A DNA stretch of 37,619 bases. Origin: a virus. The stretch is from IMG/VR virus record IMGVR_UViG_3300044633_001381, positions 1 through 37,619 of that record, one strand, 5' to 3'. Made by a program: the position numbers and the translations under genes. The notes beneath the pieces were generated by a model. That model searched no databases, was not told the DNA's origin, and saw nothing but the letters and a program-made list of their open reading frames with translations. Below are positions 4,876-19,597 of this stretch, piece after piece (positions within the stretch are counted from its first letter, which is position 1; the number at the start of each line of letters is the position of its first letter).

Positions 4876-5001
4876 TCCAGAGTAGCTCAATGGTAGAGCA
4901 TGCGGCTGTGGGCCATAAAGTATTATTTAATAGAGAGTGCAAATCTCACAAGGCCAAAGTTAACCGCAGGGTTGGGGGTTCGAAACCCTCCTCTGGAGCC
5001 A
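4876..5001 (+). tRNA. tRNA with 51-nt insertion in the anticodon loop (Asn GTT or His GTG)
   Basis: Acceptor TCCAGAG / CTCTGGA, G73 and CCA; D-arm GCTC/GAGC with canonical loop AATGGTA; anticodon stem TGCGG (4901-4905) / CCGCA (4964-4968); T-loop TTCGAAA. The anticodon loop holds 58 nt instead of 7. Removing 51 nt gives CTGTTAA (anticodon GTT, Asn) at several equivalent junctions, or CTGTGAA (GTG, His). G73 and the lack of an extra 5' G favour Asn. The insertion is itself foldable: GGCC (4911-4914) / GGCC (4952-4955), with TATTA/TAATA and GAGA/TCTC hairpins inside. Confidence 0.75.
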
Positions 5002-5675: not shown

Positions 5676-5683
5676 TATTTATA
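5676..5683 (+). promoter_or_regulatory. TATTTATA start-proximal box
   Basis: TATTTATA, then 4 nt, then the ATG of the Mom-like gene. One of eight such boxes 3-5 nt before a start codon. Confidence 0.5.
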
Positions 5684-5687
5684 TCAT

Positions 5688-6437
5688 ATGATTAAATTGA
5701 AAGAATTAATATTGGAGGGTTTGAAAGATAGTGTATATTTGGAACCCAAGAGTAAATCTGAAGTATTGAATTTTATTAAGCAGCATTATTTAAAGACATA
5801 TCCTACGGCGGTGGCTGCTAATTATGGTGTGATGTACAAGAAGACAGATGGTAATGTGGATATGGTAGGAGTGATTGTTTATGGACAAACCACCAAGCCA
5901 CAAGATTATGAAGAAATAGCTGTAGATGCAGAGGGCAATAGTTTATTGCAAAAGAATGAAGTATTTGAGTTATTGAGATTATATTTGAAACCTGAGGCAA
6001 AACAAATACCTGAGTTAAGCAACTTGGCGTCGTATGTAATTGGTTTGGGTAATAAAAAGATTAAACAGGATTATCCCGAATTAAAGGTTGTTATTACACG
6101 GGCTGATAGTGGACAGGGACATACTGGATCTATATATCAAGCAACAAATGCAATTTATTTAGGCAAGAGTAAAGATACAAAACGTTTGTGGGATAAAAAA
6201 GAAAACAAGTGGGTGTATAGATTACCACAAATAAAGAAGTATGGTTTTGAAACTGGTAAAGATGCAGCAAATGATGCAAGAACCAATCCTAATAGTCCAT
6301 TTGAAATAAGAACTGCTACTGGAAAACATATGTACATTTATATTTTATCCGGACAAAATTCTAGTGATGGTAAAAGAATATTGGGTGGATTGATTAAGTC
6401 AATTCAACCATATCCAAAGAAACAAAGTAACGTTTAA
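5688..6437 (+). CDS. Mom-like DNA-modification N-acyltransferase (GNAT fold)
   Basis: A 249-residue protein. Residues 94-100 (ELLRLYL) and 139-158 (ADSGQGHTGSIYQATNAIYL) match my memory of the Mom family, GNAT-related enzymes of phage Mu type that modify adenine in phage DNA and so block host restriction. Residues 46-68 fit the strands before them. The first residues, MIKLKELILEG, form a short amphipathic helix ending in I-L-E-G. This fits the L/I-x-E cleavage site of T4 prohead protease and resembles T4 capsid-targeting peptides, so the protein may be packaged in the head. The start is fixed by the TATTTATA box 4 nt upstream. It stands alone between tRNA blocks. Confidence 0.65.
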   Translation: MIKLKELILEGLKDSVYLEPKSKSEVLNFIKQHYLKTYPTAVAANYGVMYKKTDGNVDMVGVIVYGQTTKPQDYEEIAVDAEGNSLLQKNEVFELLRLYLKPEAKQIPELSNLASYVIGLGNKKIKQDYPELKVVITRADSGQGHTGSIYQATNAIYLGKSKDTKRLWDKKENKWVYRLPQIKKYGFETGKDAANDARTNPNSPFEIRTATGKHMYIYILSGQNSSDGKRILGGLIKSIQPYPKKQSNV

Positions 6438-9920: not shown

Positions 9921-10619
9921 ATGAAGAAAGTATTAGTATTAGTGTCATTATTGACCGCTCTAGCAGTTACTGCTGGAGATAATTCTAACATCTCAGTAGA
10001 GGCTGGTTATAACAACCAGTACATCGTTAACGGTGTAGCTCGTTCTGAAGGCACGCCATTTGTGGGTGTAGGTGCTGTAAAGAGTTTAAAGTATGCGGAT
10101 GTATATTTGGGTGGTACTCTTTTGGCCAATGGTGACCTAGATCAGTCTCATTGGACTTTGGGTGCTGGAAAAGAAGTAAATGTGTGGAAGGATGTATTTT
10201 CCGCACGATTGGATACTACTGTAACTCGTCACCAAGCTGGTAACTTTGGTATTCCCAACAGCACTGAATTTGGTGTTAAGTTGGCACTACCAAACAAGAT
10301 TGTCACACCATATGTTCGTGGATATTATGATGTAGACTTGAAGCAAAGTGGTGTATTTGTTGGTGCAGAACGTGCTCAAAAACTTCCATTTGGATTTGTT
10401 GTAACTCCTGGAGTTGAGTATGGTAAGGTAGAAGATTATACCGCTGTAAATGCAAAGTTGGCATTGACTCGTCCGTTTGAAACTTCATTTGGTGTATTTA
10501 CTCCATTTGTAAGTGCTGGATGGTATGACAACAACTTTAATACTACCAAGTACAATTGGGCAACCCGTGAATTTAGTGGTGACATTGTATATTCTGGTGG
10601 TTTGAAATTGACCTTCTAA
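9921..10619 (+). CDS. Outer-membrane beta-barrel protein
   Basis: A 232-residue protein with a clear signal peptide (MKKVLVLVSLLTALAVTA, cut near residue 18-20). Alternating beta strands follow, rich in Gly, Tyr and aromatic girdle residues (VEAGYNNQYIVNG, YADVYLGGTLLA, VYSGGLKLTF). The last residue is Phe, the usual beta-barrel assembly signal. It should sit in the outer membrane of an infected Gram-negative cell. A phage copy could mask or change a receptor, exclude other phages or alter uptake; the sequence does not say which. It has a good Shine-Dalgarno site (AAAGGA), an operator-like palindrome upstream, and its own terminator. Confidence 0.75.
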   Translation: MKKVLVLVSLLTALAVTAGDNSNISVEAGYNNQYIVNGVARSEGTPFVGVGAVKSLKYADVYLGGTLLANGDLDQSHWTLGAGKEVNVWKDVFSARLDTTVTRHQAGNFGIPNSTEFGVKLALPNKIVTPYVRGYYDVDLKQSGVFVGAERAQKLPFGFVVTPGVEYGKVEDYTAVNAKLALTRPFETSFGVFTPFVSAGWYDNNFNTTKYNWATREFSGDIVYSGGLKLTF

Positions 10620-10645: not shown

Positions 10646-10675
10646 AACCCGCTTAGAAATAAGCGGGTTTTTTTA
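10646..10675 (+). terminator. Rho-independent terminator
   Basis: Stem AACCCGCTTA / TAAGCGGGTT around a short GAAA-type loop, then TTTTTT. It ends the outer-membrane protein gene. Confidence 0.92.
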
Positions 10676-10714
10676 TTTTAATAGTCTATTTATAATTAAA
10701 GAAAGGTTTATTTT

Positions 10715-11686
10715 ATGTCATCAACAAGTGGATCAAGTGGTAGTATCGGAATAGGCACTTCCTCATTAAAAACAATAGTCGTTAAATCAACATCTGTAGT
10801 AACTAAATTTATATCTAATATATTGGTACCAAAAGTGGTACAAAGTACGATAGTTGGTAGTAGTGGTATAGGTGGTAGTAGCGGTACGGGTGGTAGTAGT
10901 GGATCTTCTGATAGTATACGTACTAACTGGACATCGAATATCAAATCCACGCTGATAAAAATGATGGCAGCCAGTAAAGACCGTAGTTTATTCAGTGCGT
11001 TTATCCAATCTACTTTTTCTTGGGTTCGAAATTCTGTTTCTTGGGTAATATCTTATAAATGGACAGGTACTGCTGCTGGTATAAATGGACTTGGTGGTGT
11101 TGGAGGTGGAACTCTCATTACTAATAAGCATGTATTATTGTCTGCACACGTTCCTTATTTGCCAAATTCAGAAATCTTTTTTGTTAACGATAACAATGTG
11201 ACTTTCAAGTACAACATCATCAAGATCGACAAGATTGATGGAAGTGATATTGCAATTGGAACGCTTGATCGATCAATTGATAGTAGTTTGAAGATATATT
11301 CGGTATTACCAGACAACTGGCAACAATACGTCAAAACTGAAATTAATAGTGCAATGGGGGTACAATTCATAACTTTACGGTTACCTGTATTGTTCCTCAA
11401 TCAAGACAAAAAAGTTTCAATTGGAGATATGACACGATTGATTGATGCTGTTGCCGATGTAGAATCTCCCGGATTTGGCACATCACAATCGTATTATGAA
11501 ACACAAAGAGTTGGCGATTCTGGAAATCCGATATTTGTGCAAGTAGGCAGTGAACTGGCACTGTTGGGTGCATGGTATAAAGTTGGATCTTTTGCTTGGG
11601 TAATCAGTAGAAAAACTCAAATTGAGTCTATTATTGGTCAAAAACTGAACGTAATTAATATGACTGGATTTGAGAAGGTATCCTGA
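10715..11686 (+). CDS. Trypsin-like (chymotrypsin-fold) serine protease
   Basis: A 323-residue protein. Residues 129-148 (VGGGTLITNKHVLLSAHVPY) carry the catalytic His145 in an S-A-H context. Asp178 lies in GSDIAIGTL, and Ser269 in the hallmark GDSGNP after RV. Order and spacing fit family S1-like peptidases. The first 70 residues are low-complexity Ser/Gly/Thr, a linker or surface tail, and 100-118 are hydrophobic (STFSWVRNSVSWVISYKW). There is no classical signal peptide. It may be a virion or infection-stage protease; the target is unknown. The start has AAAGG upstream, and TATTTATA lies at 10687-10694. Trypsin-fold proteases are uncommon in tailed phages. Confidence 0.8.
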   Translation: MSSTSGSSGSIGIGTSSLKTIVVKSTSVVTKFISNILVPKVVQSTIVGSSGIGGSSGTGGSSGSSDSIRTNWTSNIKSTLIKMMAASKDRSLFSAFIQSTFSWVRNSVSWVISYKWTGTAAGINGLGGVGGGTLITNKHVLLSAHVPYLPNSEIFFVNDNNVTFKYNIIKIDKIDGSDIAIGTLDRSIDSSLKIYSVLPDNWQQYVKTEINSAMGVQFITLRLPVLFLNQDKKVSIGDMTRLIDAVADVESPGFGTSQSYYETQRVGDSGNPIFVQVGSELALLGAWYKVGSFAWVISRKTQIESIIGQKLNVINMTGFEKVS

Positions 11687-16049: not shown

Positions 16050-17843
16050 TTATTTTGATAATGAATCGATTGATCTTTTCACTTTTGGATCTATTACTAA
16101 ATCTTGTGTGTTCTTATTAACAACTGCTTTTAAAAACTTCTTTAAAATGCCCATCAACATTTTGTCTTCTTGTGTAGACATTTTGACTTTGGAAAGTTCT
16201 TTTAATAACATTACCATAGCTGGTAAACTTTTCTTTATAACATCGATTATAGATGTAGATTGTGCCAATATATTGGTTGATGTATTTCCCGATCCAACTG
16301 ATTCTTGTTCATTTATCTTTCCTATTAAATCTTTAACTTGTGATATAGATGGTGTATTATTTAGTTCCCACAAAAATCTTTTAATAAATTTTTTCTTTAA
16401 TTTTTTAGCTATAGGTTTGTTTTCTATTGAGATAAAATCAAGTAGTTTTAAAGATCCCAATGTGTTTTTTAAAGTAGTAAAGTATTTATTTACATCTTTA
16501 TTTGTTTGCAAATTTTTACCAAGATTTTTTTCAAATTCAGATTGAAGTCTTATTAATTGTGAATAATAAGCTCCGAATTTATTTATTTCGTCCGTGGTTA
16601 ACATATCTTCATCTACGCCTGATGTACCTGTAGTACCAGTAGTACCTGATGTGCCAGTAGTGCCAGTTGTGCCAGTTGTGCCAGTTGTGCCAGTTGTACC
16701 TGTAGTGCCAGTAGTGCCAGTAGTGCCTGAAGTGTCTGTTAATGTAAAAGCATCTTTTATAGGTTTATTAGCTTTTAATACAATATATGCTGCAAATAAT
16801 TTATTAAAAATATCACCAATACCATTTTTATGTAAAATAATATAAAGTTTTTTATGTTCATATGGTTTAATACCTAAAGACGATACAATTGAGTTAGTTA
16901 TTGTTTCAAACTTGTTTATAAATTCTTGTTTTTTATTAGTATCATCCCAATAAGATAATTCATCTATTTCTGTTATGACAGGAGGTCTAATAGGCAATTG
17001 TATGTTTTTAGGTAATATTTTGCTATCATTTGTTATATTATTTAAAACATTCTTCGCATCTACAGGCAAATTGTTGTATAAATTATCAAAATCTTGTTTT
17101 ATTTTATTTACATTTATTTGTTTTAGTATAGTACCACCACCAATATCATCACCAAAATTTAAATCATCAATTTGTTTAGTTTGATATCCAGGTCTTTCGG
17201 ATCTACCCGTAGTGCCTGATGTACCTGTAGTGCCTGATGTACCTGTAGTGCCTGTTGTGCCTGTAGTGCCTGTTGTGCCTGTTGTGCCTGTTGTGCCTGT
17301 TGTGCCTGATGTACCTGTAGTGCCTGTTGTGCCTGTTGTGCCTGTAGTGCCTGTTGTGCCTGTTGTGCCTGTTGTGCCTGTTGTGCCTGTTGTGCCTGTT
17401 GTGCCTGTTGTGCCTGTTGTGCCTGTTGTGCCTGTTGTGCCTGTTGTGCCTGTTGTGCCTGTTGTGCCTGTTGTGCCTGTTGTACCTGTTGTACCTGTTG
17501 TGCCTGATGTACCTGTTGTGCCTGTTGTGCCTGCGGTTCCGGCTACTGATTTGATTTTATTTAATAAGTTTGTTAATTGTGTTGCGTACTGAATTATTTC
17601 TGGCGTAACTAAATCTTTACTAGGGCCATTTGTCAAGTCGTTAATAAGATTTTCTTTGGTCGAACCAATTTCATTTGCGATATTGGTTAGTAGGGAATTT
17701 ATATTTTGTTCTAATATCTGAAGATCATTAGAAGACAATTGTTTTTTACCTCCCAAACCTACAGATCCTTTTAATTTATCAAAAAAACCAGCTTCATTTA
17801 AAAATTGAGTATATAACTCTTTAGTATAATTCATATCATTCAT
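16050..17843 (-). CDS. Large protein with Gly-Thr-Thr repeat tracts, probable virion protein
   Basis: A 597-residue protein. Domains: an N-terminal helical part (1-95) starting [20 protein letters not shown], where L-N-E-A fits the T4 prohead protease site; a long Gly-Thr-Thr/Ser tract (about 103-213); a middle domain (215-370); a second shorter tract (about 370-412); and a helical C-terminal domain. Each tract is built from 9-bp DNA units. Such tracts act as flexible, collagen-like or glycosylatable linkers. The size, N-terminal peptide and pairing with the next large gene suggest an internal or injected virion protein. It starts one base after the stop of the upstream gene. Confidence 0.65.
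16619..16736. repeat. Short 9-bp minisatellite
   Basis: About 13 copies of a 9-bp unit close to GTTGTGCCA / GTAGTGCCA. On the minus strand it encodes the second Gly-Thr-Thr tract. More varied than the larger tract, with GTACCAGTA-type units mixed in. Confidence 0.85.
17208..17537. repeat. Long 9-bp minisatellite
   Basis: About 36 tandem copies of a 9-bp unit, mostly GTTGTGCCT. They encode (Gly-Thr-Thr)n with a few Gly-Thr-Ser units on the minus strand. The near-identity of the central units suggests recent expansion by slippage, so copy number may vary between isolates or be misassembled. Confidence 0.92.
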
Positions 17844-19589: not shown

Positions 19590-19597
19590 TATAAATA
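19590..19597 (-). promoter_or_regulatory. TATTTATA start-proximal box (minus strand)
   Basis: On the minus strand TATTTATA, TAAAT, then ATG (19584-19582). The only leftward member of the set of eight. Confidence 0.5.

Follow-up and report, generated by a model that had tools for sequence, protein, structure and literature searches.

The window analysed here is the 37,619-base IMG/VR virus record IMGVR_UViG_3300044633_001381. It contains, located between tRNA genes, an open reading frame that encodes a putative serine protease, and the features of this gene and of its immediate surroundings are as follows:

9921-10619 (+): upstream neighbour gene, 232 aa, product outer-membrane-barrel-like as judged by eye (signal-peptide-like start, C-terminal Phe)
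10647-10674 (+): terminator-like hairpin and T-run separating the protease gene from the outer-membrane-like gene, read from the sequence
10687-10694 (+): TATTTATA motif, located 20 nt upstream of the protease start codon, invariant in all eight copies
10715-11686 (+): putative clan-PA serine protease gene, 323 aa, ATG to TGA, with seven close relatives and the remote homologue L009
10718-10765 (+): first Ser/Gly-rich stretch, residues 2-17, read from the translation
10766-10852 (+): residues 18-46, a fairly hydrophobic segment enclosed by the Ser/Gly stretches and conserved in the alignment of relatives
10856-10912 (+): residues 48-66, the second stretch rich in Ser/Gly, in which relatives differ by an indel of 6 residues
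11147-11149 (+): codon of His145, putative catalytic His, in the context LSAHV
11246-11248 (+): codon of Asp178, putative catalytic Asp, in the context GSDIAIG
11519-11521 (+): codon of Ser269, putative catalytic Ser, in the context GDSGNP

The initial annotation had pointed to His145, Asp178 and Ser269 in this frame, and all three residues are present at these positions and in the contexts given for them. The Ser/Gly-rich N-terminus that it described is likewise real and consists of two stretches (about residues 2-17 and 48-66); the segment enclosed by them is a possible docking peptide. No cysteine occurs among the 323 residues, and no signal peptide was recognized when the translation was judged by eye.

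Concerning the surroundings, the order of the gene block 7612, 8944, 9459, 9921 and 10715 is constant in all seven related loci (L002 to L008), and the tRNA genes around this conserved block vary among them. The outer-membrane-like neighbour is found in all seven related records (84-100% identity), without any match of its product in Pfam or PHROGs, and positions 10648-10667 of the hairpin are invariant in the alignment of all eight copies. A tRNA-like gene of 123 nt (4876-4998, plus strand) follows just downstream of an ordinary tRNA-Asn; ARAGORN, when allowing for introns, reads it as tRNA-Asn(gtt) whose anticodon loop contains a 51-nt insert, and its score with the Rfam tRNA model is 52.5 bits. 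At full length and with 92-100% identity it exists in four of the seven related loci (L002, L003, L004, L008); L005 and L006 exhibit a short match only, and L007 apparently ends short of the site. The window furthermore encodes a phage tmRNA (14451-14835, plus strand; Rfam 117.5 bits; tag AEDNVVSYDFSYDDVVAIAA), which is also present in L002 and L004 and is not reported in the available sequence of the other five loci.

Two further genes of the window are assigned by Pfam. The product of 5688-6437 (plus strand) is a Mom-family DNA-modification protein (Pfam Mom, 1.1e-24), whose gene is present in L002, L007 and L008 and was not found in the available sequence of L003 to L006. The gene at 16050-17843 (minus strand; 597 aa; Pfam Collagen) contains two long collagen-like GTT/GTS repeats and occurs in five of the seven related loci. 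Both belong to a set of otherwise different proteins (window ORFs at 5688, 8944, 15043 and 16050, and several ORFs of the related contig G004) on which N-termini such as MIKLKELxxE and MTKKELKELIKEVIxEE recur. We take these N-termini to resemble the head-targeting peptides of T4 and the YRG found in some of the proteins to correspond to that of ADP-ribosyltransferases, so that the proteins may be packaged and injected; Pfam gave no support for an ADP-ribosyltransferase among them.

The initial annotation had assigned the DNA to a tailed phage, which is borne out by a tail sheath gene on G004 (115 kb) and can be made more precise, as this gene points to a contractile tail. The ORF cut by the end of the window exhibits 35-41% identity to proteins of Microcystis phage Mel-JY01, of a 484-kb uncultured phage and of Flavobacterium phage immuto, and its counterpart in immuto is annotated as baseplate wedge.

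The TATTTATA motif upstream of the protease gene also precedes six of the 33 window ORFs (about 0.02 expected) and 11 of the 112 ORFs of G004 (about 0.05 expected), in each case at 3-5 nt from the start codon. Within the window it occurs, e.g., at 5676, 8932, 23645, 29264 and 31869 on the plus strand and at 19590 on the minus strand; on G004 the tail sheath gene has it as well, 33 nt upstream. Its carriers are mixed, comprising the sheath gene, a gene of the fibre region, a Mom-like gene and several ORFs without assigned function. We read the motif as a phage promoter-like element, and the spacing of 3-5 nt might fit near-leaderless transcripts. Since it is not exclusive to structural genes and lies 20 nt, rather than 3-5 nt, from the protease gene, the assumption that TATTTATA marks late genes, and with it the late expression of the protease, is weakly supported.

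Seven further IMG/VR contigs encode the protease, with 89-100% identity to the copy in the window. The eight copies represent six distinct nucleotide sequences and six protein variants, and the His-Asp-Ser triad is kept in every one of them (six of the eight compared by alignment). When residues 86-323 were shuffled 200,000 times, no shuffle matched a pattern of the triad with spacing limits. The pattern was matched by eight of the 1,511 distinct ORFs (at least 150 aa) of the loci collected, namely by the six protease variants and by two phage proteins whose annotation reads trypsin-like or serine protease. This pattern was composed after the sequence of the protease was known (allowing, e.g., Asn following GxSG) and is therefore no independent prediction; it left L009 and several proteases of the phiM9 type among the scanned ORFs unmatched, and is thus specific and less so sensitive. 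The triad is more than a chance arrangement. Five sequences, compared in ten pairs, gave a dN/dS of 0.065-0.134 for residues 86-323 and of 0.213-0.610 for residues 1-85, which indicates purifying selection on the catalytic half and a looser regime in the linker part.

Further relatives were sought by several routes. A profile search of IMG/VR yielded nothing beyond the same seven contigs, and no relatives were found there with L009 as query. A scan for NQD encoded with AAT followed by GDSG returned 59 stretches, of which seven were the known contigs and 52 lay elsewhere, with no protease-like ORF among the in-frame matches listed; the version with AAC returned eight stretches, none of them related. 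The 15 stretches found with LPxxxxNQD comprised the seven known contigs and eight in which the ORFs carrying the motif had at most 29 codons. Among bacterial genome contigs, 80 of 104 stretches were covered, and no ORF of more than 150 codons with a GxSGxP-type box after the motif appeared; a plasmid scan revealed no relative of the protease either. All these scans depend on short exact motifs, such that diverged relatives may escape them, and within their reach the putative family consists of eight contigs and one GenBank podovirus.

The podovirus, from Manatee Spring (MW202510.1), encodes the homologue L009 (UOF78081.1, a hypothetical protein of 411 aa). The database match is weak (tblastn E = 0.8, 26.4% identity; 22-23% identity in MAFFT alignments), whereas residues 86-323, when aligned directly with L009, reach a score of 157, the highest score among 2,000 shuffles being 65. 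His211, Asp245 and Ser347 of L009 align with the triad of the window protease, and the two proteins share, in identical order, the motifs GSDxxIGxLD, LR(L)LPxxxxNQD and RxGDSGxP. Despite this similarity, L009 differs in its length and N-terminal part and has no Ser/Gly linkers. Its gene is situated at the end of a structural operon, downstream of genes whose annotations are internal virion protein, structural protein and rhamnogalacturonan lyase; it is followed by an fn3 gene and then by genes on the other strand, whereas the protease gene of the window lies outside such an operon.

Concerning fold and family, the eight records tested (the window, the contigs of six of the seven relatives, and MW202510) matched neither Trypsin_2 (PF13365) nor Trypsin (PF00089) at E <= 10, whereas these models were found in 14 and 13 of 14 control genomes, respectively. 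Sequence searches of Pfam, NCBIfam, PHROGs and PDB gave no credible protease match. The 60 PDB matches listed are mostly antibody-fragment (scFv) chains, aligned via the Ser/Gly part. The structural model that the initial annotation had suggested as a check was attempted twice with AlphaFold, each time with near-identical relatives only, and neither attempt gave a usable model by which to judge the two six-stranded beta barrels, with the triad in their cleft, that characterize clan PA, as both remained below pLDDT 35 (full length, six rows, mean pLDDT 30.4; residues 100-323, five rows, 32.8). In hhalign, the profile of the protease reached a probability of 3.4% against phage Trypsin_2 proteins, with His139 instead of His145 aligned; the score exceeds all of 60 column shuffles and is discounted as support because the register is wrong. 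The His-Asp-Ser order with a G-x-S-G box, as in clan PA, is found in the protein, and as neither profiles nor PDB nor AlphaFold provided a fold, the assignment to this clan is one by motif order, spacing and conservation. The protein is probably a clan-PA protease of an unrecognised family, outside Trypsin and Trypsin_2 as filed. The residue six positions before Ser269 is Thr263, which, assuming no indel, we take to occupy the place of trypsin Asp189 (chymotrypsin numbering), so that a trypsin specificity for Lys/Arg is unsupported. Of the designation as trypsin-like serine protease, the conserved and selected chymotrypsin-type triad thus stands; the specificity of trypsin is unsupported, and the fold is without support from profiles, PDB or AlphaFold.

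The preferred explanation, to which a probability of roughly 0.4 is given, is that the gene encodes an active clan-PA protease of an unnamed phage family, which would be borne by the virion, most probably by its tail, and would cut proteins of the host surface during adsorption, comparable to the tail polysaccharide depolymerases that clear sugars. The Ser/Gly stretches may serve as flexible linkers around the possible docking peptide. The position of L009 in a structural operon, together with the missing signal peptide, favours a protease of the virion or tail that acts on surface proteins, and delivery by the particle fits a protein without signal peptide and cysteines better than Sec export. 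The triad kept in all eight copies and in L009, the purifying selection, the conserved neighbourhood and the shared TATTTATA also speak for the explanation as a whole. The role in the virion is weakened by the location of the window gene outside a structural operon, among tRNA genes, beside the outer-membrane-like gene and behind its own terminator-like hairpin, and the explanation as a whole by the missing profile and PDB matches, by the low probability in hhalign, by the pLDDT values below 35 and by the weak database match of L009.

The main rival, rather unlikely in our estimate, is an intracellular maturation protease, which would cut precursors of fibres or other virion proteins in the cytoplasm and would not be found on the particle. 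The missing signal peptide suits it, as do the TATTTATA motif common to some structural genes, the collagen-like and fibre genes that begin about 4 kb downstream, and the trypsin-like protease genes of phiM9, AF3 and RHph_N34, which lie near the major capsid gene. Proteases of the phiM9 type, however, have a hydrophobic N-terminus unlike that of the window protease, to which their homology is unsupported by hhalign, and the place of L009 behind an annotated rhamnogalacturonan lyase suggests action at the surface. The same place of the homologue in a structural operon counts against a host-takeover or anti-defence protease with targets among host proteins inside the cell, which is considered improbable; such a function would agree with a solitary gene in an accessory region whose set of tRNA genes varies, but the strong conservation and the gene order fixed in seven of seven loci fit poorly with a fast-changing counter-defence gene. 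That the protein is a protease-like domain used for binding, without proteolytic activity, or has another fold in which the triad is a look-alike, is improbable as well: profiles and models leave room for it, having given no evidence of the fold, yet neither the copies nor L009 show any change in the triad or in GDSG, and shuffled sequences never produced the pattern. Pseudo-enzymes often lose one of their catalytic residues.

The wider form of the tail-protease explanation, in which the enzyme would represent a new family of tail-borne clan-PA proteases, found both in large contractile-tailed phages and in a podovirus and stripping proteins from the host surface at adsorption, is unlikely on present evidence. 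In this form the enzyme may act on, or alongside, the adjoining outer-membrane-like protein of the phage. The known tail-borne enzymes of phages mostly act on sugars or peptidoglycan, and such a protease, if real, would be the protein-cutting counterpart to the tail depolymerases. With a conserved chymotrypsin-type protease linked to tail genes, protein receptors or protein coats would become a barrier to phage entry that can be tested, and a family absent from the searched profile libraries would gain a name.

Among known families, Trypsin (PF00089; chymotrypsin family S1A) has similar GGTLI...HVL...AH and GDSG motifs; the window protease differs from it in having no cysteines, no equivalent of Asp189, and Asn after GDSG. 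The initial annotation fairly called chymotrypsin-fold proteases rare in tailed phages, yet precedents exist: phiM9_102 of Sinorhizobium phage phiM9 is annotated as trypsin-like serine protease (Trypsin_2, PF13365), and a tblastn search with it found 29 phage records (duplicate RefSeq accessions included), 25 of which are Rhizobium or Sinorhizobium phages. In one Acinetobacter record inspected among the matches, nadB and lepA lie next to degQ, and the record resembles bacterial chromosome. According to PMC10783043, the phages of the phiM9/P10VF cluster, T4-superfamily phages of rhizobia, have a trypsin-like serine protease in common. The proteases of phiM9 (phiM9_102), P10VF and AF3 (Pootjesviridae) and that of the window are all phage-encoded, belong to phages of the T4 superfamily and exhibit trypsin-like His and Ser boxes. 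Despite this general similarity, no profile similarity between them was detectable with hhalign, and the Ser box is of the GMSGGG type in the phiM9-type proteases, whereas it reads GDSGNP in the window protease. Given these phage precedents and the missing match in the libraries searched, this kind of enzyme is known in phages and the family of the window protease is unnamed in those libraries; the protease looks like a new branch, with similar enzymes known from a few other phages.
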